Source: Blautia massiliensis (ex Durand et al. 2017) (lineage in GTDB: Bacteria; Bacillota; Clostridia; Lachnospirales; Lachnospiraceae). Taken from it: a stretch of DNA of 64,000 bases. Below the pieces are notes generated by a model. The model saw only the letters and a program-made list of their open reading frames with translations, did not search any database and was not told the origin of the DNA. Within the stretch, counting starts at the first letter, position 1, and each line of letters opens with the position of its first letter. The translations under genes were made by a program, and so were the position numbers. The stretch spans positions 1,239,293 to 1,303,292 of the forward strand of contig NZ_LN913006.1 in the NCBI RefSeq assembly GCF_001487165.1, in the 5' to 3' direction. Shown here piece by piece: positions 42,721 through 58,430 of the stretch.

Positions 42721-42888
42721 ATGAAACATAAGGTAAAGATTATAATACTCAGTGCTTTAGGAGTTTTGCTTGTGGGATCATCGGTGGTATATGCCTACTC
42801 GCAAAAAGGCACTCTGATCTCACAGAAAACGGAGGAGCTGCCTGACGGAAATATTTATGTCGAAGAATTATATGAAATAGACCAGTAA
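42721..42888 (+). CDS. Small secreted peptide
   Basis: 55 residues starting MKHKVKIIILSALGVLLVG with a signal-peptide-like N-terminus (basic start, hydrophobic core, SSVVYAYS cleavage region) and an acidic mature part ending YVEELYEIDQ. Site AAAGGAG is 9 bp upstream. It follows the DUF2298 gene. It may be a small exported peptide or signal. Confidence 0.55.
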   Translation: MKHKVKIIILSALGVLLVGSSVVYAYSQKGTLISQKTEELPDGNIYVEELYEIDQ

Positions 42889-44133: not shown

Positions 44134-44512
44134 AATGGTCTCCATAATTCTGATTTTCTGAGTTACTTCAATTATGATTAATGATATCATAAAAATGTTT
44201 TGCTTTATATTTTTATTTGTTCTCTTCATTTTGTGTTCCGAAAGGAAATTTTCTACTCATACTATATATCGTAAAAAATTCCGGATGGTAACAAAAACTT
44301 TAAAATTCTTTTAAAGTCAAAAAAGAAGTCCACTATTCAGACAATGGATTTTTTACGTTGATGATTTGTCAAATATATATTACAGGAGAGATCAGCATAT
44401 TATAAGGATTTATCGGCATGCTGGACATGAAAATAGAAGAAAAGTAAAGATGGTAAGTGCACTCAAAAAATGATGTAACAACAAGATATGGTGTTTTATT
44501 TACTGTATTTTA

Positions 44513-44541
44513 TTGACGAATGCAATATATTGTGTTACCAT
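44513..44541 (+). promoter_or_regulatory. Promoter of leader RNA unit 2
   Basis: TTGACG (44513-44518), 17-bp spacer, TACCAT (44536-44541). The spacer contains CAATATATTG, a perfect 10-bp palindrome, within CAATATATTGTGTTA, which differs by one base from the spacer of unit 1 at 7954. The palindrome is a candidate repressor site inside the promoter. Confidence 0.65.
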
Positions 44542-44547
44542 ATAAAT

Positions 44548-44688
44548 GGATTATTTTTTATGTATGGTTTGCCACGCAGCAAAGTTTTTTGTTCCGGATA
44601 TGCTGTTCCGGGAGCAACATTTAGGCGAAGGCCTTTTATCAATAGGAAGACATCAAAAATCAAAAGAAGATTTTTGGTGTCTTTTTTT
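44548..44688 (+). ncRNA. Leader RNA unit 2 (homologous to unit 1)
   Basis: About 140 nt from promoter to terminator. The segment 44591-44646 shares with unit 1, in order, GTTCCGGAT, CCGGGAG, AACATT-AGG, GCC, TTT and AATAGG; differences are short insertions in loops. The first hairpin (TCCGG/CCGGG) and the second (AGGC-GAAG-GCCT) are kept as structure. The terminator ends about 100 nt before the first gene of the second accessory operon, the same arrangement as unit 1. Open frames across this region (for example 44488-44763) cross the hairpins and look accidental. Confidence 0.6.
44648..44688 (+). terminator. Intrinsic terminator of leader RNA unit 2
   Basis: AGACATCAAAAATC (44648-44661) and GATTTTTGGTGTCT (44669-44682) pair over 14 bp with one G-U, followed by seven T. 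Confidence 0.88.
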
Positions 44689-44791
44689 GTTGTCCAAAAA
44701 CGAAATGTGAAGTGTGCAAAAAAACAGGAAGGGAGGAAATGTAAAATAATCCACAAAAGATGAACAGGAAAATCAAAAAAGGAGGCAGAAT

Positions 44792-45211
44792 ATGGGACAG
44801 GCTATATGTATTCGAAAAGATGAAAAACCATTGGGATATGACTGGGAATGTGGACATGAGGAATTATATGTCAGAGTGAATATGTACTACAACGGATCTT
44901 TGTATGTCGGATTATGGCAAAAGCAAGAGGAATGTGAGGAAAAACTGGAATTATTCGGAGATCTTACAATTGGAGTTATGGGATTTCTAAGGCCAGGGCA
45001 GGCAATAATCTCGGATTGCGGAGCAAAAGCAAAGGTTGCGTTTATTGAAAAGTATAAACTCGGAAAAGTTATAGGTAAGAGGAAAATCAATTATGGCAGC
45101 TATTATGTCGTAGAGTTTAATCTTGCACGACTTGCACAGCTCGATCCAGAAGGTACGGAAAGATATCTGCTCGAAAATGGTCTTGATCAAAAAGAATTTA
45201 AAGCAGATTAG
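44792..45211 (+). CDS. Unknown element protein, first gene of second accessory operon
   Basis: 139 residues, start MGQAICIRKDEK behind AAAAGGAGG. It looks like a compact alpha/beta domain (ELYVRVNMYYNGSLYVGLW, then GVMGFLRPGQAIISDCG). I associate this type with small DUF4313-like proteins of integrative elements, with low certainty. Lies downstream of leader RNA unit 2. Confidence 0.55.
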   Translation: MGQAICIRKDEKPLGYDWECGHEELYVRVNMYYNGSLYVGLWQKQEECEEKLELFGDLTIGVMGFLRPGQAIISDCGAKAKVAFIEKYKLGKVIGKRKINYGSYYVVEFNLARLAQLDPEGTERYLLENGLDQKEFKAD

Positions 45212-45256
45212 GGTAAAGAGGTACATTTGAAAACCAGGCAATAAAGGTGGTGCGGC

Positions 45257-45592
45257 ATGAAAGACGACGAATATAAGGGATATTACTGTCTGCTGATTGC
45301 AATCTTGTGCAATTTGAATGCAGCGGAAGCCAGCACAATGTACGAATACGGACCAGATCATCCGCTTTGCCGGAAAATCCTGAAAAAGAAAGTTCGAAAA
45401 CCGTCCATAAGAAAGCTCAAGGAAACGGAACAGGCAGCGGCTATGAAGGCTCTTCTTGATCAGGGATACAGCCAGGATGCAGTATCGGAAGCATTTCAGT
45501 GTTTTCCATCTACGGTCAGGCGCAGAGTAAGAAAATTAACAGAAAGGAAGGAAACGAATGACAGATCAGAAATTGATTGCAGGAATATTTAA
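45257..45592 (+). CDS. Small protein with C-terminal helix-turn-helix-like segment
   Basis: 111 residues, site AAAGGTGG. The C-terminal half, ALLDQGYSQDAVSEAFQCFP then STVRRRVRKL, resembles a helix-turn-helix (GYSQDAVSEAF-x-STVRRR). N-terminal part hydrophobic with Cys. May be a regulator of the element operon. Overlaps the next gene by 35 bp. Confidence 0.55.
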   Translation: MKDDEYKGYYCLLIAILCNLNAAEASTMYEYGPDHPLCRKILKKKVRKPSIRKLKETEQAAAMKALLDQGYSQDAVSEAFQCFPSTVRRRVRKLTERKETNDRSEIDCRNI

Positions 45593-45971
45593 TGATTTTT
45601 TAGGACTTTATACGGGTAAAATACAGACCGGTATCCGTCCTTTGATTGAAAAATATAAAAACCATCCCATGCTGATGGGGCTCCTCTCCAATTTGGATGA
45701 AGCGGCAAAGATTCAGACACCGAAAGCCATGAAAGAAATCTATTCTTTCTATAAAGAATATCGTGGCAGGGATCTGGATGATGCTGACTGGAAGGAACTG
45801 ACGGAAAAAGCCCGTCAGATCAGTGCAGGATGGGAGGAAAATGAATGGGTTCGCCGTATTGTACTGGAAATGATCAGCCTTTTGGATTCTGATGATGCTG
45901 AGAGACGCAGGATTGCATTGGAAGTAGAAAAAGAAATGGAAGCGGCTGAACAGAAAATGAATGCGGCATAA
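45558..45971 (+). CDS. Unknown helical element protein
   Basis: 137 residues, fully helical by composition, start behind AAGGAAGGAAACGA and overlapping the previous gene. Segments DDADWKELTEKARQIS and WVRRIVLEMISLLDS suggest a coiled, soluble protein. Family not recognised; small proteins like it often precede pcfK/pcfJ on clostridial elements. Confidence 0.6.
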   Translation: MTDQKLIAGIFNDFLGLYTGKIQTGIRPLIEKYKNHPMLMGLLSNLDEAAKIQTPKAMKEIYSFYKEYRGRDLDDADWKELTEKARQISAGWEENEWVRRIVLEMISLLDSDDAERRRIALEVEKEMEAAEQKMNAA

Positions 45972-45981
45972 AAAGCAGGCA

Positions 45982-46015
45982 GAGGCAGGAGATTTTTTCT
46001 TCTGCCTCATGTTTT
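45982..46015 (+). terminator. Hairpin upstream of pcfK-like gene
   Basis: GAGGCAGGAGA (45982-45992), loop TTTTT, TCTTCTGCCTC (45998-46008) with one G-U, followed by ATGTTTTTA. A terminator or processing stem between operon parts. Confidence 0.6.
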
Positions 46016-46038
46016 TATCAGGAAAGAAGGGACCGATT

Positions 46039-46758
46039 ATGTTAAATGAGATCATAAAAACTGCAGAAGAATTAAATACAGCAGCATTGTATTACCGCCA
46101 GAGCGGGAATATGGATGGTGTGCGGGAACTTGCCAAAGCACATGCAGTTTCCAAAAAACAGACAGAGGAATTTATTCAGGGCAGCCGCTACCGGCTGGTT
46201 GATATACCGATTGAGGAAAGAAAGTTTGCGAATGCGTCTGAAAAACTGCGTGCAGAAATGTTTGCCTTAAAGGATGCAGGCTTTGCAGACATCATAGGAC
46301 AGTATCTCGTAAATCTTGCCAAAACGGATTCTGCTTTAGATGCACAGGTGTTAAAAAAACATAAGATGCTTCAGAGATGTTTGGATTACGTGACGCAAAA
46401 AGCCTACAACATTGCACTGGAGGGAACGAAAAAAAAGGGAGAGAACGGCATTCGAGCCAATACAGGCCTGGCACTCTCCGGCGACCAGGTTTTTCCTTGG
46501 GTACTTGAATATTATGCGAAAGATGATGAAAAAGAAATAGCAGAAAAAGAGCAGGAAGAAAAGAAAAAGATTCAAAAGGAATGGGATTCGGTAAATAAGA
46601 GAACGAAAACAATACCGAAAAACCCGGGGACAAAGAAAGATTCCGAGGTGCATCCCAAAGAAGCAGCGAAGCAGGAAGAAAAGTATATCAGCAAGAAAAA
46701 ATCAAAAGATTCCGGGCAGATGTCCTTGTTTGACATGATGCAGCCGAAAGAGAGTTAA
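46039..46758 (+). CDS. PcfK-like / AcrIIA9-family protein with beta-clamp motif
   Basis: 239 residues from MLNEIIKTAEELN at 46039 (site AGAAGGGA). Residues 85-165 (MLQRCLDYVTQKAYNIAL, then GDQVFPWVLEYYAKDDE) match the PcfK fold known from pCF10-type and other Firmicutes elements, the family that includes the Cas9 inhibitor AcrIIA9. A long charged tail follows and ends SGQMSLFDMMQP, a clear beta-clamp binding motif. This argues for a role at replication forks. Anti-Cas9 activity is a family property of some members, not shown here. Two PcfJ-like genes follow, as in typical pcfK-pcfJ pairs. Confidence 0.75.
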   Translation: MLNEIIKTAEELNTAALYYRQSGNMDGVRELAKAHAVSKKQTEEFIQGSRYRLVDIPIEERKFANASEKLRAEMFALKDAGFADIIGQYLVNLAKTDSALDAQVLKKHKMLQRCLDYVTQKAYNIALEGTKKKGENGIRANTGLALSGDQVFPWVLEYYAKDDEKEIAEKEQEEKKKIQKEWDSVNKRTKTIPKNPGTKKDSEVHPKEAAKQEEKYISKKKSKDSGQMSLFDMMQPKES

Positions 46759-46769
46759 AGGAGAAGGAT

Positions 46770-47312
46770 ATGATCGCATATAAAGGATTTCAAAAGGATT
46801 TGAAATGTCGGGGCTTTCAGTTTCAGGAGTATGGCATAAATGAAACGGAAAAAGCAAACTGTAGACAAAATGGATTTCATTGTGCAGAAAACCCACTGGA
46901 TTGTCTCTGCTATTATCCGAATTGGAAAAATTCCGTGTATTACATAGTAGATGCATCAGGGGATTTGGATGAAGATGGAGAAGATTCAAAAATCTCCTGC
47001 ACAAAGATGCGCCTGTTAAAGAAAATTGAATTGAGAAGCCTGTTATTACATGGAGCTGCCTACATGGCGAAATATCCAAACCGGAAATGGAACTCCCATG
47101 TTGCAAAAGAAAACGGGACCAGCTGCAACGGATTTTGCATTGTACGTGGAAAAGACCCCAAAGCCAAAGGACAAAAGGGCGATTTACTGTTACTTTTAAA
47201 GGAGCAGCCTGGTAACAGCCAGATACTGGAAATTGGGGTCATCTGTATCGATGGTCAGAAATATCCGGAGAAAGCATGGATTGATGTGACTGGAAAGCTG
47301 GTGGAGTTATGA
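46770..47312 (+). CDS. DUF7666-like protein
   Basis: 180 residues, start MIAYKGFQKDLKCRGFQFQ behind AAAGGAGAAGG. The pattern YKGF-K-LKCRGFQF, then C-NGFHCAENPLDCLCYY is that of the DUF7666-type domain often found on phages and integrative elements; role unknown. Overlaps the PcfJ-like gene by 4 bp (ATGA). Confidence 0.6.
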   Translation: MIAYKGFQKDLKCRGFQFQEYGINETEKANCRQNGFHCAENPLDCLCYYPNWKNSVYYIVDASGDLDEDGEDSKISCTKMRLLKKIELRSLLLHGAAYMAKYPNRKWNSHVAKENGTSCNGFCIVRGKDPKAKGQKGDLLLLLKEQPGNSQILEIGVICIDGQKYPEKAWIDVTGKLVEL

Positions 47313-49501
47313 GAAAAAAGAGGTTGATGGAATTAAAACCATTAAAAGTGATGAACAGACATATCGCCGATGCAAAGAAAACTGAAATATCTTTGAGTCC
47401 ATTGGAGAAAAAAAGGGGTGAACCCGGAAAATATCGGATGTATTGTCGGGCAGCAGTAGAAAAAGGAATTTTAAAAGTGTATCTGTTTGCCGTAACGGAT
47501 ATTGAGGAGAATATAAACTTTCCAAGGTACCGTCTGTTTATCAGCAGAAAAGAGAGACGGTTTATAACCTATGATGAAAAATTAAAAAAATGGAGAAAGG
47601 CACTTCTTGAAAGTATCTTATGGGATGTAAGGATTAATCTTGGCAACATCTATGTAAATGACTGTGATACAAAGGTCATCCAAAAATATTTAAAGACAAT
47701 GCAACCTGCAATCCGGGCACTGGAAGAGTTTCAGGCGAATATCCGTAAAGAACAAAGGATACGTCATGATAAAAAACTTACAGATTCATGGGACCAAGTG
47801 ATGAAAACTATATCTGGACTGCCTAAGAACTGGATCGGATGGGTTTCAAAATATGGAATTACGGAACACTATATCTTCTACAAGTATCAGAAAAATGGTG
47901 CTACAGAAGGATACTGTACATATTGCAAAAAGCATGTTCCAATCCGTTCACCCAAATATAACCAGAAAGGACATTGTAACGTGTGTGGACAACCGATTAC
48001 TTTTCGTTCCGTGGGAAAGTCTGGAAGATTTTGTACAAAGTGGTACAGAGTCTATCTTATCCAGAGGAGACGCAAGACTTCTGGTTTTGTGCTCCGGATC
48101 TTTCATGCCAGAACGTGGTATAAAAAGGGCGGCTATACAGATTGCGAAACTACCTGCCATGAAGAGCAGAGAAGAATCTTCTCTGCAAATGGAAAGGAAA
48201 TTTCCAATTTCGTTTATGATCTGTTCAAACAACGGGAAATGCGTTGGATTTCGTGTAGAAGTTCTTGGTATTATACTTGCTGTGACAGTCAATATAAAGG
48301 AATGGTTTATCCATATACCCTGTCGGATCTGTCCAGGCATGAATTAAAAGAAACAGGTCTGCGTGAGTACGCCCTTGGTCAGAAAAAGATAGATCCTGGA
48401 AAATATCTTTACCTGTGGAAAACGTATCCGGTACTGGAACAGATTGTAAAAGCGGGGCTTTTCCAGTTAGTTGATGATGTACTGGACCACAGGGCAGCAG
48501 ATGCAATAAAAAGAAAAGGCAGAAAACCAACAGAATTCCTGTCCGTAGATAAGAAAGAGTTTCGAAGACTCCGAGATATGAATGGCGGGGTAAAAGAACT
48601 TAAATGGCTGCAACTTGAAAAGAGTACAGGAAAAACAATCGGGGATGAAGAAATATGCTGGATGGTAAAAGAAGGATTTGAACCAAACGACCTGAAGTTT
48701 GTTCTGGATCAGATGAGCATCTGCCAGATTCGACATTATCTTGTGAAACAATCAGAAAAATCCGGGGATGATATCAGCCATGTGCTGCAGGTGTGGAACG
48801 ATTATCTTTCTATGGCAAAAAGACTGGGAATGGATATACATGATTCCATTATTTACCGTACCAGAGATCTTCAACTGCGCCATAAAGAGGCGGTTTTGAA
48901 GATAGAAGAAATGAAACGCGGAATCCGACGCAGGGAGCTGGAAGAAAAGTATGTCGGATTTCAGAAACATCTCATTGATTTGAAAGAAAAATATGAGTTC
49001 AGTGACGGTGAATATCAGGTCATTGCGCCAAAGAATATCGATGACATCCTATATGAAGGTGATACTCTTCATCACTGTGTAAATAAGACGGATACTTATT
49101 TTGACCGGATCGTTTCAAAGGAAAGCTATATCCTGTTTTTGCGGGAAAAAGAGAATCCGAAAGTACCGTTTTATACACTGGAAGTTGAACCAGATGGAAC
49201 CATCCGGCAAAAACGTGCGGAATTTAACCGTCAAAATAAGGACATTGATAAGGTGACTTCTTTTTTAACATTGTGGCAGAAGGAAATTCAGAAGCGATTA
49301 ACCAAAAAAGATCGTAAGAGCACAGAAGAAAGCAGGAAGCTCAGGCAGCAGAACTATCAGGAGATACGTGATAAGCATGTAGTTGTCCATGGCGGAGCAT
49401 TTGCTGGGGAACTTCTGGCTGATCTTTTAGAGAAAGACTTAATGGACCTACCAGTGGAATCGGCAGAAAACGAAGAAAGCCCTACTGAAATAGCGGCGTA
49501 A
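47309..49501 (+). CDS. PcfJ-like protein 1
   Basis: 730 residues. A zinc-ribbon-like CTYCKKHVPIRSPKY then GHCNVCG lies at about residue 200. The C-terminal PcfJ region at about 575-650 has DDILYEGDTLHHCVNKTDTY, then SYILFLRE and FYTLEVEPDGTIRQ. PcfJ proteins are co-encoded with PcfK on conjugative plasmids and integrative elements; their biochemical role is unknown. The HHCV-N and YILFLR blocks are strongly conserved between the two copies here. Overlaps the upstream gene; followed by a GC-rich hairpin. Confidence 0.75.
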   Translation: MRKKRLMELKPLKVMNRHIADAKKTEISLSPLEKKRGEPGKYRMYCRAAVEKGILKVYLFAVTDIEENINFPRYRLFISRKERRFITYDEKLKKWRKALLESILWDVRINLGNIYVNDCDTKVIQKYLKTMQPAIRALEEFQANIRKEQRIRHDKKLTDSWDQVMKTISGLPKNWIGWVSKYGITEHYIFYKYQKNGATEGYCTYCKKHVPIRSPKYNQKGHCNVCGQPITFRSVGKSGRFCTKWYRVYLIQRRRKTSGFVLRIFHARTWYKKGGYTDCETTCHEEQRRIFSANGKEISNFVYDLFKQREMRWISCRSSWYYTCCDSQYKGMVYPYTLSDLSRHELKETGLREYALGQKKIDPGKYLYLWKTYPVLEQIVKAGLFQLVDDVLDHRAADAIKRKGRKPTEFLSVDKKEFRRLRDMNGGVKELKWLQLEKSTGKTIGDEEICWMVKEGFEPNDLKFVLDQMSICQIRHYLVKQSEKSGDDISHVLQVWNDYLSMAKRLGMDIHDSIIYRTRDLQLRHKEAVLKIEEMKRGIRRRELEEKYVGFQKHLIDLKEKYEFSDGEYQVIAPKNIDDILYEGDTLHHCVNKTDTYFDRIVSKESYILFLREKENPKVPFYTLEVEPDGTIRQKRAEFNRQNKDIDKVTSFLTLWQKEIQKRLTKKDRKSTEESRKLRQQNYQEIRDKHVVVHGGAFAGELLADLLEKDLMDLPVESAENEESPTEIAA

Positions 49502-49518
49502 ATAAAAGGATAAAGTGG

Positions 49519-49545
49519 ATGCGGCAGGGAGTTCCCCTGCTGCAT
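49519..49545 (+). terminator. Hairpin between the two PcfJ-like genes
   Basis: ATGCGGCAGGG (49519-49529) and CCCTGCTGCAT (49535-49545) pair over 11 bp with one G-U. Only TTT follows, so it may be an mRNA-stability or partial termination stem. Confidence 0.55.
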
Positions 49546-49603
49546 TTGAGCAGAAAAGAGAAAATGACATTATATGCAGCAGAAAATGAAGGAGAGGACG
49601 GAT

Positions 49604-51793
49604 ATGAATAAAAAAGAATTGCGTAACATGAAATTGCTGGAAGCTACGGATGAACTGATAAAACTTGCAAAAGAAGATGTGCCAGTAAGAGATGAAGGAT
49701 ACTATACGGAGCAGCTGATTTATCAGAGGGGGCTATATTTACGTGCAGAAGTAGAAAACAATATTTTAAAGGTAGCATTTTATCTGGCAGAATATCTTTC
49801 CATGGACTGTCGGAAACCTGTATATACATTATATATTGATAAAAAGAACGATGTTTTTAAAGGGTATGATTACCGGACAAAGAAATGGTCAGATAGTATG
49901 CTGGATAAGACCATTTTCTCAAAATGGTTATATCAGGAAAATTCTTATATGAAAGAGGCGGATACAGCGTTGATCCAAAAGTATCTTGAAAGTGAATATG
50001 ACGATGCTTTTTATGCACTGTATGTATATCAACGTGAGCAGAGACACCGGAGGCTGGGAATGAAATATGAAAAAATTCTGACAAGCTGGGATCAGTGTAT
50101 GGATAGACTTCCAAAAATTCCGAAAGACTGGCTGAGATGGCAGAAAAAAGTTGGAGTTACCCAGAATTTTATCTTTTATCATTACAGCCGCAGGAAAGAT
50201 CAGACAGGATATTGTAGCTGGTGTGAAAGCGAAGTTCCAATCAGCCATCCTCACCATAATGCAGTGGGGCATTGCCCAAAATGCAGACATCAGATTCAAT
50301 ATAAAGCATTAGGCCGGGCCAAAAATATAGAAACCCCAAAAGAGACTGCATACCTGCTTCAGACCTGTGGAGATAATGTGTTTGTTTTGAGAGAATTCCA
50401 GCTTCAGATGCTCATAGTAAGCAGCTCATATAAAAAACCAGTATATTCTTTCTTTGAGCGCCGGAGAATCCTGTATGATGAAAAATTAAATACAAAAGAA
50501 TATTATTTTGGCCGTCATCATTGGACAAAAGAAAGCCGATGGATCCAGGGTAAATTACAGGTTCCACTGTATCCAGGTTACGGTGGCTATATGACATATG
50601 AAAAATATAATATGGGAAATATTTATGGAAAATCACTGTATGGCATTAAAAACAGGACATTCCGTAGGACAGGATTCTACGAATATGCAAAAGCCAAAAA
50701 GTATTTAGATCCGGTAAGTTTTTTTGAAATGGTTAAAGAAAGACCTTATCTGGAACGGCTCATTAAAGCAGGACTTTATCATCTCGTAGAAGACATTATG
50801 GATAATAAAGCACAGATTTATTGTAAAGATTCCGGAAACCTTGGAAAAGCACTGGGAATTGACAGGTTCCGCTTGAAAAGGTTACGTACAAACAATGGGG
50901 GAGAGATTTTTCTTCAATGGCTGTTGCTTGAAAAAACCCAAAACAAGTTGATCTGTGACGATGTGATTTCATGGATGTGCCTGGAAAAACTTAAACCAGC
51001 GGCTCTTATGTTCATTATGGATCGTATGGCTCCTTTACAGATTAAAAATTATCTGGAAAAGCAGGCAGCAGAAAGTGGGGAATCCGTGAAAAACCTGATC
51101 AAAACATGGAAGGATTATCTCAATATGGCAATTCGGGTCGGAGTGAATGTGCAGGATTCTGTTATCTACCGTGCACGAAAGCTCATGCAGAGACATAATG
51201 AAATGATAAAAGAGATAGAAGCAAAAGATTTGATTTTAAGAGCCGGAGAGCTGGAAAAGAAATATCCAGGTCTGAATCGTATATGCAGGGATTTGAAAAA
51301 ATATGAATATGCGGACAAAGAGTATCGGATCGTTGTGCCGGAAAAAGTGGATGATATTTTGTATGAAGCAAAACTGATGCATCACTGCGTAAATAATACA
51401 GAAACCTATTATGAACGAATGAGCCAGCAGGAATCCTATATCCTGTTTTTGAGAACGGCAGAACAACCAACGGAGGCATACTATACGCTTGAAGTGGAAC
51501 CGGATGGAACCATAAGGCAGACACGCACTTTTTATAACCAGCAGAATGAAGATATCGAGCTTGCAAGGGATTTTCTTGTAAAATGGCAGAAACAATTAAA
51601 AAAGAAACTGGCAAAAGAAGATTATAAACTGGCTGTAAAAAGTCAGAGTCTTAGGAAAAAAGAGATTGACGAGCTCCGCAGCAAAGGCGTTCGTGTAAAC
51701 GGTGTTGGGTATTGCAACAAATTGCTTGCTGAAATTCTGGAGGAAGATTTAATGGAGGCAGGGAATCAGGAACTGGAAGAACAGGCCGCATAA
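49604..51793 (+). CDS. PcfJ-like protein 2 (tandem paralogue)
   Basis: 729 residues from MNKKELRNMKLLEA at 49604, with AAGGAGAGGACGG upstream; the frame opens earlier at 49574. It matches its neighbour along the whole length: zinc-ribbon-like GYCSWCESEVPISHPHH then GHCPKCRH at about residue 200, and the C-terminal DDILYEAKLMHHCVNNTETYY, SYILFLRTAE and YTLEVEPDGTIRQTR blocks. Clear tandem duplication followed by divergence. Last gene of the second accessory operon. Confidence 0.75.
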   Translation: MNKKELRNMKLLEATDELIKLAKEDVPVRDEGYYTEQLIYQRGLYLRAEVENNILKVAFYLAEYLSMDCRKPVYTLYIDKKNDVFKGYDYRTKKWSDSMLDKTIFSKWLYQENSYMKEADTALIQKYLESEYDDAFYALYVYQREQRHRRLGMKYEKILTSWDQCMDRLPKIPKDWLRWQKKVGVTQNFIFYHYSRRKDQTGYCSWCESEVPISHPHHNAVGHCPKCRHQIQYKALGRAKNIETPKETAYLLQTCGDNVFVLREFQLQMLIVSSSYKKPVYSFFERRRILYDEKLNTKEYYFGRHHWTKESRWIQGKLQVPLYPGYGGYMTYEKYNMGNIYGKSLYGIKNRTFRRTGFYEYAKAKKYLDPVSFFEMVKERPYLERLIKAGLYHLVEDIMDNKAQIYCKDSGNLGKALGIDRFRLKRLRTNNGGEIFLQWLLLEKTQNKLICDDVISWMCLEKLKPAALMFIMDRMAPLQIKNYLEKQAAESGESVKNLIKTWKDYLNMAIRVGVNVQDSVIYRARKLMQRHNEMIKEIEAKDLILRAGELEKKYPGLNRICRDLKKYEYADKEYRIVVPEKVDDILYEAKLMHHCVNNTETYYERMSQQESYILFLRTAEQPTEAYYTLEVEPDGTIRQTRTFYNQQNEDIELARDFLVKWQKQLKKKLAKEDYKLAVKSQSLRKKEIDELRSKGVRVNGVGYCNKLLAEILEEDLMEAGNQELEEQAA

Positions 51794-51951: not shown

Positions 51952-52053
51952 TTGGAGGAAAAATTAAAGTTGCTTTGGCTGGTATTGATCTTTGTTGATT
52001 TTGGGCTTATGTTTATTTCATTTCCAATTCTGATGTATGTAATTTTTGTCTGA
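51952..52053 (+). CDS. Possible 33-residue membrane peptide
   Basis: TTG start 7 bp after CGGAGG; codes MEEKLKLLWLVLIFVDFGLM then FISFPILMYVIFV, almost entirely hydrophobic. Good ribosome binding site spacing but non-ATG start. Could be a small membrane peptide or toxin-like product. Confidence 0.35.
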   Translation: MEEKLKLLWLVLIFVDFGLMFISFPILMYVIFV

Positions 52054-52199: not shown

Positions 52200-52228
52200 A
52201 ATTGACATTAAGAATCTGGAATGATACG
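52200..52228 (+). promoter_or_regulatory. Promoter of leader RNA unit 3
   Basis: TTGACA (52200-52205), 17-bp spacer, TACGAT (52223-52228). The spacer does not share the palindromic sequence of units 1 and 2. Confidence 0.6.
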
Positions 52229-52234
52229 ATAAAA

Positions 52235-52370
52235 TTAAACATTTTGCAAAACAGATTGCACAAAATTTTATTCTGATACGGGGTCAGAATTTTATACTTT
52301 ATACCGCGTCTGCGGATCAACCGATAAAGACACAAAAAGAGTAAAATGGACTCTTGGAGTGTCTTTTTTT
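52235..52370 (+). ncRNA. Leader RNA unit 3 upstream of the nine-repeat gene
   Basis: About 135 nt between promoter and terminator with no reading frame of note. Contains hairpin ATTCTGA-TACGGGG-TCAGAAT (about 52270-52291) and a small CCGC-GTCT-GCGG stem near 52309. The core differs from units 1 and 2, but the layout (promoter, structured RNA, strong terminator, gene about 65 nt later) is the same. Likely an attenuator-type leader for the repeat protein gene. Confidence 0.45.
52327..52370 (+). terminator. Intrinsic terminator of leader RNA unit 3
   Basis: AAGACAC (52327-52333) with GTGTCTT (52359-52365) outside and AAGAGT (52337-52342) with ACTCTT (52350-52355) inside, then a run of T to 52370. 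Very similar in outline to the unit 2 terminator. Confidence 0.8.
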
Positions 52371-52433
52371 GTTTAGCAAAATGTTTTAACATGTATCAGA
52401 TCCAATCACGATAAAAGGAGGAAAGAAGTTTTT

Positions 52434-53981
52434 ATGCCACGTAAAATCAGATCAAATTACATGGAGAAATTCAAATTTGTGTACAATGGCAGAACTTTTG
52501 AAAGTAAGCATAAATGCTGTAACTTTTATGGAATATGTTACCGTAGTGTAATGGCGTATCAGAATCAATATAAATGTAGAACTGAAGAAGCGATTACACA
52601 TTTTATTGAATTGAAAAAAAGTAAAGAGATCATATTCCGAAATCGAAAATGGGCCAGCATTAAGACTTGTTGTGAATTTTATGATATAAACGAAGCTTCC
52701 GTTAAAACAGATATTTGGAATCGAAAGTGCACACCACAGGAAGCAATTGAACGGGCAATAGAATGGAAAAAGGCACATGAAATCACATATCATGGAGTGA
52801 AGTATCCATCACTTCCTCAATGCTGTGAAGAATTGGGAATAAATCCTATATCCGTACGTTTGTATATGGAAAAGAATGGAGTTTCTTCTACACGTGCGAT
52901 TACACATTACATTAAATCTAAAAAACAAAGAATCTTTGCATTCCGGGGAAAAGAATACAATAGTTTCACGGAATGTTGTCTCGCGTATGGCCTGAACCCC
53001 AAAATTGTAAGAAGTGCTGCCTATAGAACCAAAAGCTCCTTGCCAGAGACGTTGGAAAAAAATGTTTCTCATATGGAAGGTTGCGTGCCACAGGAATCCA
53101 CCGAAAATGATGAGAATTCTGGAAACAAGGTAATATCAAAAAAAAGGCACCGCGCAAAAGAACCATTCTTTTATGAAGGGGAAAAATATGTTTCCCTTGG
53201 ACAGTGTTGTGAGATATACGGAATTAATGAAACCAGTGTACGGGCCAGAGCATGGCGGATTCATTGCACCTGGGAAGAGGCTGTAAAACATTTTATAGAA
53301 AAAAGCAATGCGGATGAACTAAAAAAGATATTTGTATATAAGGGAAAAGAATATCAAAGTGTTGCTGAATGCTGCAGAAAGTATGATGTTCGTGCCGCCA
53401 GTGTCCGTAACCGGGCTTCCTCGACTGGATGTAGTATAGAAGAGGCCCTGGATCATTTCATAAAGAAAAAAATAGTGACAAAGAAAAATGAATTTGTATT
53501 CCGAAATAAAAGCTATGAAACGTTGGAAGAATGCTGTGAGGTTTATGGTGTGAATGCAAACAGCGTATCTTCAAGAAAGTATAGATTAGGGTGCAGCACA
53601 GATGAATCGTTGGAACATTTTATTGCAAACAAAGAGATAATAGAAGAAAGGATACAGAAGTTTACATTTAAGGGGATGGAATACCCCAGCCTCCGAGCAT
53701 GCTGCAAAAAATATGGCATTGAGGATGCGTGTGTAAGGCAGAGAGCCAGAGATAAAAATTGTTCCATAGAAGAATCATTTGAGCATTTTATGACAAGAAA
53801 AAGAAAAAAGATGCTGGATAATCCTGAATTTGATTATCATGGAACCCTTTATCCATCGCTTAAGGAATGCTGCGAAAAATTAAAGATAAGTAAAAATAGT
53901 GTAGTAAGCAAAAGTCGTCGGAGCGGATGCAGCTTACAGGAAGCGGTAGAATATTATGTAAAAAAGCAGCACAATAAATAA
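52434..53981 (+). CDS. Nine-repeat CC protein, DNA-binding-like (IENR1/NUMOD-like repeats)
   Basis: 515 residues made almost wholly of nine repeats of about 51-56 residues. A CC pair marks each: residues 28, 79, 130, 181, 258, 313, 367, 423 and 479. The consensus is F-Y-G-Y-SL-ECC-YGIN-SVR-RA-GCS-EEA-HFI, with a short beta hairpin, then helix-turn-helix-like YGIN-SVR and a final helix. A 26-residue linker interrupts repeats 4 and 5. The pattern resembles intron-encoded-nuclease repeat (IENR1/NUMOD1) DNA-binding units, but no nuclease domain is attached. The gene has its own promoter, leader RNA unit 3 and AAAGGAGGAAAG site, and sits next to xis and int. A modular DNA-binding role is inferred. 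Confidence 0.7.
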   Translation: MPRKIRSNYMEKFKFVYNGRTFESKHKCCNFYGICYRSVMAYQNQYKCRTEEAITHFIELKKSKEIIFRNRKWASIKTCCEFYDINEASVKTDIWNRKCTPQEAIERAIEWKKAHEITYHGVKYPSLPQCCEELGINPISVRLYMEKNGVSSTRAITHYIKSKKQRIFAFRGKEYNSFTECCLAYGLNPKIVRSAAYRTKSSLPETLEKNVSHMEGCVPQESTENDENSGNKVISKKRHRAKEPFFYEGEKYVSLGQCCEIYGINETSVRARAWRIHCTWEEAVKHFIEKSNADELKKIFVYKGKEYQSVAECCRKYDVRAASVRNRASSTGCSIEEALDHFIKKKIVTKKNEFVFRNKSYETLEECCEVYGVNANSVSSRKYRLGCSTDESLEHFIANKEIIEERIQKFTFKGMEYPSLRACCKKYGIEDACVRQRARDKNCSIEESFEHFMTRKRKKMLDNPEFDYHGTLYPSLKECCEKLKISKNSVVSKSRRSGCSLQEAVEYYVKKQHNK

Positions 53982-54038: not shown

Positions 54039-54073
54039 ACAGCCAATATCATCTGCCTGCAGATATTGGCTGT
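54039..54073. repeat. 12-bp perfect inverted repeat before the excisionase gene
   Basis: ACAGCCAATATC (54039-54050) and GATATTGGCTGT (54062-54073), loop ATCTGCCTGCA. A GAGGAGGAAC ribosome-binding-like sequence lies just in front. No T-run. Could be a terminator for the repeat gene, a binding site for Xis, or an mRNA control stem for xis. Confidence 0.55.
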
Positions 54074-54081
54074 AATTATAT

Positions 54082-54279
54082 ATGATACATAAAAAGAAAC
54101 AACCGGCAGCAGATAACGATAAGATTCTTATATCAGTTAAGGAAGCCTGTGAACTGACAGGGCTTTCTGAGAAAACAATGCGAACACTTATGAACAATAA
54201 TACCTTCATGGTACGAATTGGGCGAAGAACCCTGATTGATAAGAAAAAATTTCAGAAATGGATAGATCGGCAGTCTTGA
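54082..54279 (+). CDS. xis: Excisionase-like DNA-binding protein
   Basis: 65 residues with a MerR/excisionase-type winged helix: ISVKEACELTGLSEKTMRTL, then FMVRIGRRTLIDKKKFQKWI. This is the standard excisionase-family pattern; such proteins steer a tyrosine integrase toward excision. No good ribosome binding site directly precedes the ATG, so translation is probably weak or controlled by the hairpin just upstream. The integrase gene starts 81 bp downstream. Confidence 0.85.
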   Translation: MIHKKKQPAADNDKILISVKEACELTGLSEKTMRTLMNNNTFMVRIGRRTLIDKKKFQKWIDRQS

Positions 54280-54360: not shown

Positions 54361-55644
54361 ATGGGAAAAAATCTAAAAGGAAAAGAAATAGGTAAGGGAA
54401 TCCGACAAAGAAAAGATGGGCGGTATGAAGCCAGAATCACAATTAAGGGTTCTGGCAAACCGCCTTTTTCTATCTATGGAACAAATCTTCAGCAAGTGAG
54501 AAAGCAAAGAAGCATGTATTTAGCGGAGGTTCTCCCAGGTGTTCCAGGCTTTGATTCGAGTATGTCCGTTTCAAAATGGTATGAGAAATGGATGGAACTT
54601 TATAAGGTTCGGAATCTTAAAGCAACCACGATAAGAAATTATGAAGATGGTTTTAGAAGAACGGAAGAATACATCGGTTACATGAAACTGGTAGATATCA
54701 AACCGGAACATATTCTTGACATGATTAAAAAATTGGAGGATGAAGGATACGCTCCTACATCAATCAAGCAATCATTAAGTGTCGTGCATCAAATGTTTGA
54801 GAGGGCAGCAGCCAGTAAAATGATTCCATCGGATCCTACAGCAGAAGTTAAGCTTTCCGTTGAGGCACCGGGAGAAGTGTTGGCAGAACCTACAGAAGAA
54901 GCTTTGGATGTAAAAGAGAATTGTCTTAGTACAGACGAAAGCCATCGCTTTTTGGAAACCATTAAAGGAGACCGTTATGAGGAACTTTTCTTGATTTTGA
55001 TGCATACGGGAATGCGTATAGGCGAAGTGCTTGCCTTACAATGGAGAGATGTCAATTTCGATGAAAAATATCTTCGTGTATACAAAACGCTAAACAGAGT
55101 CAAATTGTATTATGACAAGCAGGGAAAGAAACTTGCTGAGCCGTATTATGTTACACAGATTACATCACCGAAAAAAAAGAAAAGTGTCAGAATAATTCCG
55201 CTGCCAGATATTGCAATTGAAGCCTTTTTGAGCTGGAAAGAAAAACAGAATCAGGACAAAAAAGTGTTAGGCAAGAAATGGGGAACTGGAAATGATCTTC
55301 TAAAAAAATATCCTGGACTGATATTTACAACATCAACAGGAATGAGTTATCTTCCTGGCAATGCTGAAGATGAATGTGAGCGAATCAAAAATATTGTAAA
55401 TAAGCAAGAAGCATTAGAGGCTGAAAAAGAAGGTCGAGAAGCAGAAATGTTAGATGTAACTCCACATAGCTTTCGTCATACTTTTGTAACAAGATGTGTA
55501 CAATCTGGAATGAAACCGGCTACGGTAGGTAAAATCAGCGGTCATTCTACTCAGAAAATGACAGAGTATTATACGCATCTTGAACAGGGGTATGTAAAAG
55601 ATGAATACAAACGGTATGATGAAAAGTATGGAAAAGAAAGCTGA
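54361..55644 (+). CDS. int: Tyrosine recombinase / integrase
   Basis: 427 residues: an N-terminal AP2-like arm-binding region (IRQRKDGRYEARITIKGSG), a SAM-like core-binding domain (about 60-165) and a C-terminal catalytic domain. Catalytic residues visible: Arg in HTGMRIGEV, HxxR in PHSFRHTF, His in SGHSTQKM and nucleophile Tyr in MTEYYTHLE. Full length for Tn916/phage-type integrases of Firmicutes. Site AAAGGATGG. The gene ends 41 bp before the mutS frame, which places an element end there. Confidence 0.93.
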   Translation: MGKNLKGKEIGKGIRQRKDGRYEARITIKGSGKPPFSIYGTNLQQVRKQRSMYLAEVLPGVPGFDSSMSVSKWYEKWMELYKVRNLKATTIRNYEDGFRRTEEYIGYMKLVDIKPEHILDMIKKLEDEGYAPTSIKQSLSVVHQMFERAAASKMIPSDPTAEVKLSVEAPGEVLAEPTEEALDVKENCLSTDESHRFLETIKGDRYEELFLILMHTGMRIGEVLALQWRDVNFDEKYLRVYKTLNRVKLYYDKQGKKLAEPYYVTQITSPKKKKSVRIIPLPDIAIEAFLSWKEKQNQDKKVLGKKWGTGNDLLKKYPGLIFTTSTGMSYLPGNAEDECERIKNIVNKQEALEAEKEGREAEMLDVTPHSFRHTFVTRCVQSGMKPATVGKISGHSTQKMTEYYTHLEQGYVKDEYKRYDEKYGKES

Positions 55645-55685: not shown

Positions 55686-58430
55686 TTGGAAAAAACAAGA
55701 AACACTGAAGAAGAAAAAAAAATGGGTCAAAAGTGGGTCAAAGAGGAACATAAAGCATCTACAAGCCGCGTAAATACAGGGTTTCCAGTTAACACAGGGA
55801 AATTATCACCGATGATGAAAGAATACGTAAAGACCAAAGAAGAGTACAGCGACTGTATCCTTTTTTACCGTCTGGGCGATTTTTATGAAATGTTCTTTGA
55901 GGATGCACTGACTGCATCCAGGGAACTGGAAATTACACTTACAGGAAAAGACTGCGGACTGGAAGAGAGAGCGCCCATGTGTGGCGTTCCTTTTCATGCT
56001 GCGGAAACTTATATCAACCGGCTGATCGAAAAGGGCTATAAGGTTGCCATCTGCGAACAGGTAGAAGATCCGAAAAAAGCCAAGGGTCTTGTTAAACGAG
56101 AGGTTGTCCGCATTGTCACACCGGGAACTACTCTGGATACCATGTCACTTGACGAGTCCAAAAACAATTATCTGATGTCCATTGTCTCCATTGGAGAGAA
56201 TTTTGGCTGTGCAATTGCAGATATCACAACCGGTGACTGTTTTCTCACAGAACTGGATAAACCACAGAAGCTTCTGGATGAGATCAATAAATTCACACCT
56301 GCCGAGATCATCTGCAACGACGCCTTTCTTTTAAGCGGTGTGGATGTAGCGGATCTGAAGGGGCGTCTTGGGATCTGTGTATTTGCTCTGGATCCCTGGT
56401 ACTTTGACGACCAGCTGTGCCAGAAAACCCTGAAAGAGCATTTTCACGTCGGAAATCTGGAAGGTCTCGGGATCGGAGATTATGACAGCGGGATCATTGC
56501 TTCCGGTGCACTGTTCCTGTATCTGAAGGAAACACAGAAAACAGCACTTTCCCATATGGCAAGCATCCGCCCTTACTCTGCTGAAAAATATATGCTCATC
56601 GACAGCTCCAGCCGTCGTAACCTGGAGCTTGTGGAAACCATGCGCGAAAAGCAGAAAAGAGGTTCTCTTCTCTGGGTTCTGGATAAAACCAAAACTGCCA
56701 TGGGTGCAAGAACCCTTCGTTCTTATGTGGAGCAGCCTCTGATCGATGCAGAGGAAATCGAAAAAAGACTTGGTGCCCTGGAAGAACTGAACGCAAAACC
56801 TATGGATCGTGATGAGATCCGGGAATACTTAAATCCGATCTACGATCTGGAACGTCTGATAAGCCGTATCAGCTACAAATCTGCCAACCCAAGAGATCTG
56901 GTTTCCTTTGCCTCTTCCCTGGAAATGCTGCCTTATATAAAGCAGATCCTTGCAGAATTTAACTCTCCGCTGCTTACGCAGATCAATGAAGACATGGATC
57001 CACTGTCAGACATTACCACTCTGATCCGTAATTCCATTGCTGATGATCCGCCCCTTGCCCAGAAGGACGGTGGTATCATTCGGGAAGGTTATAATGAAGA
57101 TGTGGATAAATTCCGCCGCTCCCGGACAGATGGAAAGAAGTGGTTATCTGAGTTGGAAGCAAGAGAGCGGGAACGCACCGGTATTAAGAGCCTGAAGATC
57201 AAATATAACCGTGTATTCGGCTATTCCCTGGAAGTTACCAACACCTTCAAGGATCTCGTGCCGGAGGACTATATCCGCAAACAGACCCTTACCAACGCAG
57301 AGCGTTACATCACCCAGGAGCTGAAGGATCTGGAGGATCTGATCCTTGGAGCGGAAGATAAGCTTTATGCATTGGAATTTGAACTGTTTTCAGATATCCG
57401 TGATCAGGTTGGAGCTGAGGTTGTCCGTATCCAGCGTACTGCAAAGGCAGTAGCTGCTCTGGATGTTTTTGCTTCCCTTGCACTGGTTGCACAGAGGAAT
57501 AACTTTGTCCGGCCCAAGATCAATGAGACCGGCCTCATTGATATCCGAAATGGCCGCCACCCGGTTGTGGAACAGATGATCGAAAACGATATGTTTATTC
57601 CAAATGATACGTATCTTGACAACCACAAAAAACGTATCTCCATTATCACAGGACCGAATATGGCCGGAAAATCCACATACATGCGCCAGACAGCATTGAT
57701 CGTACTAATGGCACAGATCGGAAGCTTTGTTCCTGCGGACAGTGCGAATATCGGTGTGGTTGACCGGATCTTCACCCGTGTGGGAGCATCCGATGACCTT
57801 GCAAGCGGACAGAGTACCTTTATGGTGGAGATGACAGAGGTTGCCAACATTCTTCGTAATGCCACTTCCCGAAGTCTTCTGATCCTGGATGAGATCGGAC
57901 GTGGAACCAGTACCTTTGACGGCCTTTCCATTGCCTGGGCAGTGATCGAACACATCAGCAACACCAAACTCTGCGGCGCCAAGACCTTATTTGCGACCCA
58001 TTATCATGAGCTTACCGAACTGGAAGGCAAGCTTTCCGGTGTCAACAACTACTGTATCGCTGTCAAGGAAAAAGGCGACGATATCGTATTCCTGCGTAAG
58101 ATCGTAAAAGGCGGAGCAGATAAAAGCTATGGTATCCAGGTAGCCAAGCTTGCCGGTGTTCCGGATTCCGTGATCCAGCGTGCCAAGGAGCTGGTAGAGG
58201 AGCTCAGTGATGCAGATATCACTGCAGCTGTAAAAGATCTGACTGCTCCAAAGAAAAAGCAGAAGATCACCTATGATCAGTTAGATATGGCACAGATGTC
58301 ACTGTTTGACACGGTACAGGACAATGATATCATTGAAGAGATCAAAAACCTGGAGATCGGGAATCTGACACCAATGGAAGCTTTGAATATTCTCTATAAC
58401 CTGCAGAACAAAATTAAGAACCGGTGGTGA
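55686..58430 (+). CDS. mutS: DNA mismatch repair protein MutS (with atypical N-terminal extension)
   Basis: Residues from LSPMMKEYVKTKEEYSDCIL on are a complete MutS: FYRLGDFYEMFFEDA with the mismatch-reading Phe-x-Glu, clamp and lever domains, Walker A GPNMAGKST, Walker B LLILDEIGRGTS and DGLSIAW. The C-terminal AQMSLFDTV is a beta-clamp motif. MutS detects mismatches and recruits MutL. The first 40 or so residues (TTG start at 55686) do not resemble the family and are encoded by DNA directly after the integrase, including two TGGGTCAAA repeats. Possible starts are TTG 55686 (AGGAAGAGG upstream), ATG 55722 and ATG 55812 (MMKEY). Normal promoter context has probably been replaced by element DNA. 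Confidence 0.93.
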   Translation: MEKTRNTEEEKKMGQKWVKEEHKASTSRVNTGFPVNTGKLSPMMKEYVKTKEEYSDCILFYRLGDFYEMFFEDALTASRELEITLTGKDCGLEERAPMCGVPFHAAETYINRLIEKGYKVAICEQVEDPKKAKGLVKREVVRIVTPGTTLDTMSLDESKNNYLMSIVSIGENFGCAIADITTGDCFLTELDKPQKLLDEINKFTPAEIICNDAFLLSGVDVADLKGRLGICVFALDPWYFDDQLCQKTLKEHFHVGNLEGLGIGDYDSGIIASGALFLYLKETQKTALSHMASIRPYSAEKYMLIDSSSRRNLELVETMREKQKRGSLLWVLDKTKTAMGARTLRSYVEQPLIDAEEIEKRLGALEELNAKPMDRDEIREYLNPIYDLERLISRISYKSANPRDLVSFASSLEMLPYIKQILAEFNSPLLTQINEDMDPLSDITTLIRNSIADDPPLAQKDGGIIREGYNEDVDKFRRSRTDGKKWLSELEARERERTGIKSLKIKYNRVFGYSLEVTNTFKDLVPEDYIRKQTLTNAERYITQELKDLEDLILGAEDKLYALEFELFSDIRDQVGAEVVRIQRTAKAVAALDVFASLALVAQRNNFVRPKINETGLIDIRNGRHPVVEQMIENDMFIPNDTYLDNHKKRISIITGPNMAGKSTYMRQTALIVLMAQIGSFVPADSANIGVVDRIFTRVGASDDLASGQSTFMVEMTEVANILRNATSRSLLILDEIGRGTSTFDGLSIAWAVIEHISNTKLCGAKTLFATHYHELTELEGKLSGVNNYCIAVKEKGDDIVFLRKIVKGGADKSYGIQVAKLAGVPDSVIQRAKELVEELSDADITAAVKDLTAPKKKQKITYDQLDMAQMSLFDTVQDNDIIEEIKNLEIGNLTPMEALNILYNLQNKIKNRW
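55723..55742 (+). repeat. Tandem TGGGTCAAA repeat at the element-mutS junction
   Basis: TGGGTCAAA at 55723-55731 and again at 55734-55742, 11 bp apart (one helical turn). Short direct repeats one turn apart next to an integrase gene are typical of recombinase arm or core sites. Candidate part of the attachment site (attR). Confidence 0.5.

Follow-up and report, generated by a model that had tools for sequence, protein, structure and literature searches.

A gene at positions 52,434 to 53,981 on the + strand of the analyzed Blautia massiliensis DNA encodes a protein that consists almost entirely of nine helix-turn-helix (HTH) repeats. The DNA, a stretch of 64,000 nucleotides of contig NZ_LN913006.1, is hereafter called the window, and all positions refer to it. 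The repeats of this protein, the array protein, are remotely but consistently linked to the DNA-binding modules of homing endonucleases, and a nuclease domain was not found. The gene lies beside xis and int at the right end of an integrated mobile element, and we consider it reasonably probable that its product is a nuclease-free DNA-binding regulator of that element.

The nine-repeat gene

The gene and its parts are as follows.

52434..53981, + strand: array protein gene, 515 aa, nine HTH repeats (from the open reading frame, the repeats, Pfam/NCBIfam/PHROG and models)
52467..52619, + strand: repeat 1 (R1, aa 12-62)
52620..52772, + strand: repeat 2 (R2, aa 63-113)
52773..52925, + strand: repeat 3 (R3, aa 114-164)
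52926..53078, + strand: repeat 4 (R4, aa 165-215), the unit least like its counterparts
53079..53156, + strand: 26-residue R4-R5 linker, low model confidence
53157..53309, + strand: repeat 5 (R5, aa 242-292)
53322..53474, + strand: repeat 6 (R6, aa 297-347)
53484..53636, + strand: repeat 7 (R7, aa 351-401)
53652..53804, + strand: repeat 8 (R8, aa 407-457)
53820..53972, + strand: repeat 9 (R9, aa 463-513)

Nine units occupy residues 12-513, and pairs of adjacent cysteines (CC) start at residues 28, 79, 130, 181, 258, 313, 367, 423 and 479. The spacings between these pairs are 51, 51, 51, 77, 55, 54, 56 and 56 residues, the step of 77 reflecting the 26-residue linker between R4 and R5. Units of 51 residues drawn around CC account for 459 of the 515 residues, and the first 11 residues, the last 2 and the linkers lie outside them. 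A previous reading of this DNA from its letters alone, the sequence-only reading, had described nine copies of one unit of 51-56 residues with the first four CC pairs exactly 51 residues apart. The copy number and the first spacings were borne out, and the unit length holds for seven of the eight steps, failing at the step from R4 to R5.

The units are diverged, with 10-23 of 51 positions identical between pairs within the window. The majority residues over 22 units, taken from the window, B. luti and a relative in another genus (G232), include F, G, Y, SL, CC, YGIN, SV, R, CS, EA and I. A third cysteine at +20 is present in 7 of the 9 window repeats versus 2 of the 8 in G232. A profile built solely from the eight G232 repeats served as a non-circular chance test for the window repeats. 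It recovered 9/9 window units at 371 bits; of 1000 composition shuffles it reported 677, which scored 11.7 bits at most. The nine CC pairs observed compare with a shuffle mean of 1.5 and a maximum of 7 in 5000 shuffles. The nine-repeat observation is confirmed as real.

Predicted fold and relatives of the repeat unit

The AlphaFold2 model of the whole protein displayed a nine-fold pattern of two short strands, the CC-bearing helix, a turn, a second helix and a third helix. Its mean predicted local distance difference test score (pLDDT) was 73 and its predicted template modelling score (pTM) was 0.27, the folds of the units being fair. The R2-R3 pair, modelled with 15 rows of repeat pairs, reached a pLDDT of 91 and a pTM of 0.66, and its third helix runs almost straight into the strand of the next unit. 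Each unit is predicted to be a beta-hairpin plus three helices with an HTH, and the neighbors R2 and R3 are predicted to have a defined mutual arrangement. Structure prediction, a check that the sequence-only reading had proposed, thus returned an HTH, and its second helix is positively charged. A role of the CC pairs as metal or Fe-S ligands was rejected and a role in packing is likelier, because the pairs lie inside helix 1 and related HTH repeats carry M-C, W-S or other pairs instead (judged by eye).

Among predicted viral structures (BFVD), six matched at E <= 0.001 and three of these were named. The best was 'Nuclease-associated modular DNA-binding 1' (NUMOD1, E 1.3e-6), the other two were a GIY-YIG endonuclease and an intron-associated endonuclease, and an I-TevI-like endonuclease came next (E 1.8e-3). 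The top PDB structure matches were designed helical proteins, ranked above I-HmuI, and a natural repeat array of such units was absent among the matches listed. PDB searches by sequence gave weak or designed-protein matches only.

Pfam family PF22083 (I-HmuI_NUMOD-like) matched the whole protein with 40.9 bits (E 1.6e-10; gathering score 27 bits), a score that sums weak repeats, as none of the single stretches of the array protein passes. Against single repeats, 6 of 22 matched at E <= 1, the best at 0.004. PF07453 (NUMOD1) was not reported for the window protein at E <= 1; a related array from Alteromonas scored 46.3 bits with this family (cut-off 22.8). phrog_1065, a family of phage proteins with no known function, matched four stretches of the array protein (E 4e-21) as well as the repeat region of the Moonbeam HNH endonuclease (E 7.3e-13). 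The latter protein (YP_009151692.1) has two C-terminal units. A search with these units returned 94 phage records, and 14 of the 40 rows listed were annotated as HNH endonuclease, most others being hypothetical. A search for phrog_1065 in whole genomes found it in 0 of 120 genomes and 0 of 14 controls and was uninformative.

Five HNH endonuclease proteins were examined, and each has two C-terminal units. The alignment of the array units with 8 of these 10 units by hhalign gave a probability of 96.6% over 44 columns and E 6.4e-10, the value for one pair of profiles. A control with the shallow alignment of the xis HTH gave 39.7% over 31 columns. With HMMER, the CC-type profile matched four of the five nuclease proteins marginally (E 0.001-0.33 at Z = 20000), and Moonbeam was unreported. 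The link between the array units and the repeats of HNH endonucleases is remote but consistent in these comparisons. The assignment to IENR1/NUMOD-type repeats made from the letters alone was therefore upheld by PF22083, phrog_1065, hhalign and the NUMOD1 match in BFVD. The claim that a nuclease domain is lacking also stood, as HNH, GIY-YIG, EDxHD and LAGLIDADG domains were not found in the array protein with Pfam, NCBIfam and PHROGs, and the repeats fill residues 12-513.

The homing endonucleases of Bacillus, Enterococcus and Staphylococcus phages thus appear to carry the same module as the array. They combine an N-terminal nuclease part with two modules, whereas the array has nine modules and no detected nuclease. 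The I-HmuI domain (PF22083 / PDB 1u3e) is likewise part of an endonuclease, and its overlay with one array unit is weak (Z 2.8), below the levels of a common arrangement. PVL_ORF50 (PF07768) passes its cut-off in three related arrays scanned (an S. equinus plasmid, Butyrivibrio pCY360 and genome G159) and was unreported for the window protein. Excisionases, or recombination directionality factors, are small single-domain winged-helix proteins. The array protein falls outside this type, with 515 aa, nine HTH units and a separate xis adjoining it. The phrog_201 label 'Panton-Valentine leukocicin' is attached to phage proteins with these HTH repeats; its origin is probably the ORF name PVL ORF-50 rather than any resemblance to a toxin.

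Close relatives of the array protein are found in B. luti (76% identity), G299 (77%) and G364 (83%), each with nine units, and the G232 protein (34%) has eight. A genome of another family, G506, encodes two small proteins with one strong CC-type unit each (52 bits), directly 5' of a tyrosine recombinase. Counting the window's own genome, array matches occurred in 4 of 299 family genomes, 3 of 61 relatives, 4 of 392 order genomes and 1 of 398 phylum genomes. Elsewhere, matches were obtained at one locus in genome contigs, one in viral contigs and two plasmid records, and in phage records there was one at E <= 1e-5 and eight at E <= 5. G159, G284, MT840022 and the two plasmids carry more distant arrays in which a different residue replaces the first Cys.

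We counted 3 to 11 units in 15 distant array proteins, the 11 being on an Alteromonas plasmid, by an iterated profile with a score floor of 4 bits, at which marginal single units are uncertain. These arrays are located on plasmids, phages and chromosomes, so that the statement of the sequence-only reading that such repeats normally occur in one to a few copies was too narrow. The arrays of pCY360, the S. equinus plasmid, the Alteromonas plasmid and Vpf497 of Vibrio phage VfO3K6 are tandem like the window array. They differ in having M, W, A or another residue for the first C and, as a rule, no CC pair.

C-terminal nuclease-like stretches were detected in two of nine distant arrays scanned. The stretch of Vpf497 matched the phrog_681 endonuclease (E 1e-8), and that of G159 matched DUF2726 (E 5.8e-5, just under cut-off), which we take to be nuclease-like. 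Several other distant arrays have C-terminal parts lacking a family match, where a domain may be hidden. As judged by these family searches, the nuclease-free array is not unique to the window, and most related arrays checked lack a detected nuclease. Vpf497 (L085:2297-3790) has seven units of the same superfamily, and MUG113/T5orf172 matched it weakly in addition to the phrog_681 stretch. A record of phage f237 (AY196694) gives nearly the same match, and the gene is presumably 'ORF8' of f237, the pandemic-strain marker. On Butyrivibrio pCY360 (L078:7175-15880), six annotated genes in about 9 kb downstream of cas12a encode related arrays of 3-8 units.

Arrays of such modules were not described in the literature searched, which lay mostly outside subscription journals. 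Homing-endonuclease modules are known as aiming devices of nucleases, and here they are multiplied into arrays, often without a detected nuclease. This points to a second life of the modules as long-site DNA binders in mobile elements and would offer a function for a group of large 'hypothetical' plasmid and phage proteins. The array protein, with one gene, nine units and defined neighbors, is a testable protein for serial binding by modules.

Proposed role and alternatives

We infer DNA binding, its target and regulation from the identity of the repeats, their homology, predicted fold and charge, and the selection on and location of the gene. DNA binding is well supported in this indirect way, and the exact role is a guess. 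We propose that the array protein, as nine I-HmuI NUMOD-like / IENR1-like / PVL_ORF50-like HTH modules without a nuclease, binds the control DNA of its own element. Its units would be strung along a single long DNA site, their second helices occupying one groove after another, and binding would switch or structure the expression of the array-xis-int genes. The leader described below, with its terminator-like stem, may provide another layer of control within this transcript. Phage homing endonucleases contact up to 30 bp through loosely tethered NUMODs, according to PMC3943268. I-TevI, as described in PMC2988022, represses its own transcription by binding an operator, and in this role its DNA-binding domain works independently. 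The array protein would act like this DNA-binding part in its role as a repressor of the I-TevI promoter, in which no cut is made. The parallel is limited to the use of homing-endonuclease modules in transcription control; I-TevI keeps its GIY-YIG nuclease, and the array protein is not claimed as a member.

The charge of the predicted second helix is consistent with DNA binding. Over 99 residues of second helices, the window protein has a net charge of +18 (p = 0.006; all these p-values are uncorrected for multiple regions). The values are +16 for B. luti (p = 0.011), +17 for G364 (p = 0.022) and, over 88 residues, +23 for G232 (p = 0.0002), and helices 1 and 3 are near neutral or negative. 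The ratio of nonsynonymous to synonymous substitution rates (dN/dS) of the window array was roughly 0.12 against G299, 0.13 against B. luti and 0.10 against G364. In the same order, the ratios were 0.12, 0.11 and 0.04 for xis and 0.19, 0.18 and 0.10 for int, and the array of G299 against that of B. luti, which have hardly diverged, gave 0.21. These ratios indicate that the array gene is under purifying selection and maintained.

Units R1-R4 of the window match those of G232 in the same order. Of 1680 pairings only 2 score this high, one of them being the true order; a clear order was not seen for the later units. R1-R4 at least are an old, fixed array and not near-identical interchangeable units, because their order is kept in G232. 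Near-identical repeats with changing copy number, as in transcription activator-like effectors, are not a trait of the array protein, and nine units are present in all four Blautia loci (window, B. luti, G299 and G364) and eight in G232. The sequence-only reading had pointed to variable residues at the same helix positions and suggested modular DNA recognition. The variable residues are there, but they are not special compared with the other variable columns, and with the R1-R4 order kept in another genus, a readable modular code is not supported by these alignments.

Several findings weigh against a DNA-binding regulator of the element. The pTM of 0.27 leaves the overall shape of the array undefined by the full-length model. 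The natural PDB match is weak, I-HmuI (1u3e) being found by Foldseek with E 7.6 and overlaid on one unit with Z 2.8 and a root-mean-square deviation of 2.8 over 42 residues. Five regions were examined for charge with no correction of the p-values, and in the Blautia proteins the beta-hairpin carries a net positive charge as well (+7 to +9 in 72 residues; -1 in 64 in G232). The nine variable columns of the second helix are as divergent between orthologues as the 21 other variable columns (0.26 vs 0.28, p = 0.40). The dN/dS ratios are rough, since dS is near or above 1 for several pairs. The second array copy of G232 is broken by an in-frame TAA, and the int of the window has no match in 16 kb around this copy. 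An operator was not found, the 641 bp upstream holding two-copy repeat families only. Finally, G263 keeps xis and int, the latter with 99.8% DNA identity to that of B. luti, without an array match, and because of this, integration alone may not require the array.

This locus also bears on the alternative that the array protein is a recombination accessory, which would wrap or bridge DNA near the attachment sites like IHF or Xis and so steer integration or excision. The array adjoins xis-int in four loci, its right-hand part shares their similarity pattern, and many HTH units per chain would suit the bending or bridging of a long site. However, the nearly identical int of G263 does without it, and near the right attachment site there is only one pair of 11-bp direct repeats (55718-55739); we regard such a role as unlikely. 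Still more doubtful is that the nine HTH modules form a continuous superhelix reading one long operator or attachment-arm site (tens of bp to about 90), with its own piece for each module. If true, homing-endonuclease parts would here make up a natural reader of long DNA sites. Recombination between its modules could possibly re-assort it, and the similarity break beside R4 hints at this.

Tandem helical repeats serve in RNA or protein binding in other proteins, and the array could be a solenoid of this kind, directed at the leader RNA or acting as a scaffold or in counter-defence. The leader, with a mean column identity of 97%, and the designed helical proteins among the best PDB matches would fit. 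This is improbable in view of the profile kinship to DNA-binding parts of endonucleases, the positive charge on the second helix, as expected for DNA, and the lack of a match of the array protein in PADLOC. A low-specificity coat that protects target sites or, in the manner of nucleoid proteins, shields or silences the element would agree with a basic protein (isoelectric point 9.2) of many units with no signal of specificity, and arrays can cluster, as the six array-like genes in about 9 kb of pCY360 show. Purely non-specific binding would not need the R1-R4 order that is kept in another genus, and we hold this role to be highly improbable. We rejected a decaying homing-endonuclease remnant that lost its nuclease and no longer works, which has very little probability left with dN/dS about 0.1, in the range of xis and int. 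The modules are of the homing-endonuclease type, nuclease-like stretches remain in Vpf497 and G159, and one G232 copy is broken, but the frame is open and the nine units are retained in all four Blautia loci, and CC-type relatives without a detected nuclease occur in two further genera, G232 and G506. The regulator of its own element remains our preferred reading of the array protein.

The surrounding element

The features around the array gene are as follows.

44473..51793, + strand: rest of the shared element (DUF4313, PcfK, DUF7666 and two PcfJ genes)
44560..44791, + strand: second leader, before the DUF4313 gene; it shares the terminator end GTGTCTTTTTTTGTT (44677-44691)
52202..52230, + strand: sigma-70-like promoter TTGACA-17-TACGAT with TG, upstream of the array
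52238..52433, + strand: putative leader RNA with small hairpins, a terminator-like stem (about 52326-52372) and an enclosing stem
54039..54073, no strand: perfect 12-bp inverted repeat with an 11-nt loop, between the array and xis
54082..54279, + strand: xis, Tn916-Xis/HTH_17-type excisionase, 65 aa (Pfam, NCBIfam)
54361..55644, + strand: int, tyrosine recombinase, 427 aa (Pfam, NCBIfam)
55686..58430, + strand: mutS, first codons element-derived
55803..55817, + strand: presumed crossover core TTATCACCGATGATG in the 5' end of mutS (right attachment site)

Pfam and NCBIfam verified both xis and int, which the sequence-only reading had placed beside the array. The gene that follows is presumably mutS, judging by its protein sequence, and homologues are present in all 22 mutS loci of the genus that were compared, of which at least 3 are cut short by contig ends. 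Three of these loci have array, xis and int, G263 has xis and int without the array, and one has only a xis-like match. The DNA on the element side of B. luti and G299 is nearly alike up to TTATCACCRATGATG, after which each enters its own mutS, and the crossover was placed at TTATCACCRATGATG because the likeness ends there. The comparison shows a mobile element integrated into mutS at its 5' end, with the array at the element's right end and the order leader-array-xis-int. All four Blautia loci, those of the window, B. luti, G299 and G364, have the array immediately before xis-int.

A left attachment site was not found: the 22-base core, allowing up to 3 mismatches, has one match in the window, and the 15-base core has one exact match in the own genome plus seven with one mismatch, none of the seven inside the window. 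The sequence common to the window, G299 and B. luti begins near 42,721. From 44.5 kb (46.0 kb for B. luti) to 51.9 kb, the window element is 93-100% identical in DNA to those of G299 and B. luti per 150-bp window. The identity is 83-85% in the gap at 52.0-52.3 kb, 89-97% in R1-R3 and 57-79% from R4 through int, except for 84-85% at the start of xis. The dS against B. luti is 0.05 for PcfJ1, 0.32 for R1-R3 and 2.2 for R4-R9. G364 has the reverse pattern, lower over R1-R3 (85-88%) and higher from R5 through int (79-92%). R4 is close to neither element type; its DNA is about equally far from all compared elements (68-70%), and the unit is 57% identical to R4 of B. luti and 61% to that of G364. 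The simplest reading of these identities is a mosaic make-up of the window element, its parts meeting within the array gene near 52.9 kb. To the right of about 52.9 kb, the array follows xis and int in its similarity to other elements.

The claim that the array has its own leader RNA is plausible. A promoter-like site precedes the region, matching the consensus only (15 such sites were found in the region and 9.9 are expected), and its hexamers are kept in four aligned loci. The leader of about 195 nt contains a terminator-like stem with a T run, its columns have a mean identity of 97% in the four loci, and the predicted fold of 52238-52436 is more stable than shuffles (z -2.94). Covariation was absent, with both sides changed in 0 of 50 pairs in the four sequences, a terminator scan did not list the terminator-like stem, and the leader had no Rfam match at the gathering threshold. 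A match to IRES_Tobamo (38.9 bits versus 50 needed) was rejected as chance. The leader core was found in 0 viral stretches and in 1 of 200 family genomes, the window's own, the 200 excluding three other known carriers.

The sequence GTGTCTTTTTTTGTT occurs twice in the window versus 0.07 expected, and the fold of the second leader has a z of -3.17. In both leaders, this terminator end follows a predicted series of hairpins and precedes the first gene of a gene block. These features hint at a shared transcription control of the operons of the element. The inverted repeat at 54039-54073 is possibly an operator or an RNA/translational hairpin, and it is kept with small changes in G263, where a transposase-like sequence lies just upstream of xis-int (by eye).

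The start of mutS lies inside element-derived DNA (55686-55817). In two other loci of the genus, L052 and L056, which have no int match, mutS is similarly extended at its N-terminus, as though a departed element had left part of its right end behind. Each of the two G232 arrays is followed by a nearly identical small gene (L043:4086-4466 and L044:3507-3893), ParE/RelE-like by eye. In the 640-bp gap before the array of the window, there is a hydrophobic frame of 33 codons at 51952-52053, which begins with TTG behind a GGAGG-rich stretch and looks by eye like a small membrane peptide.

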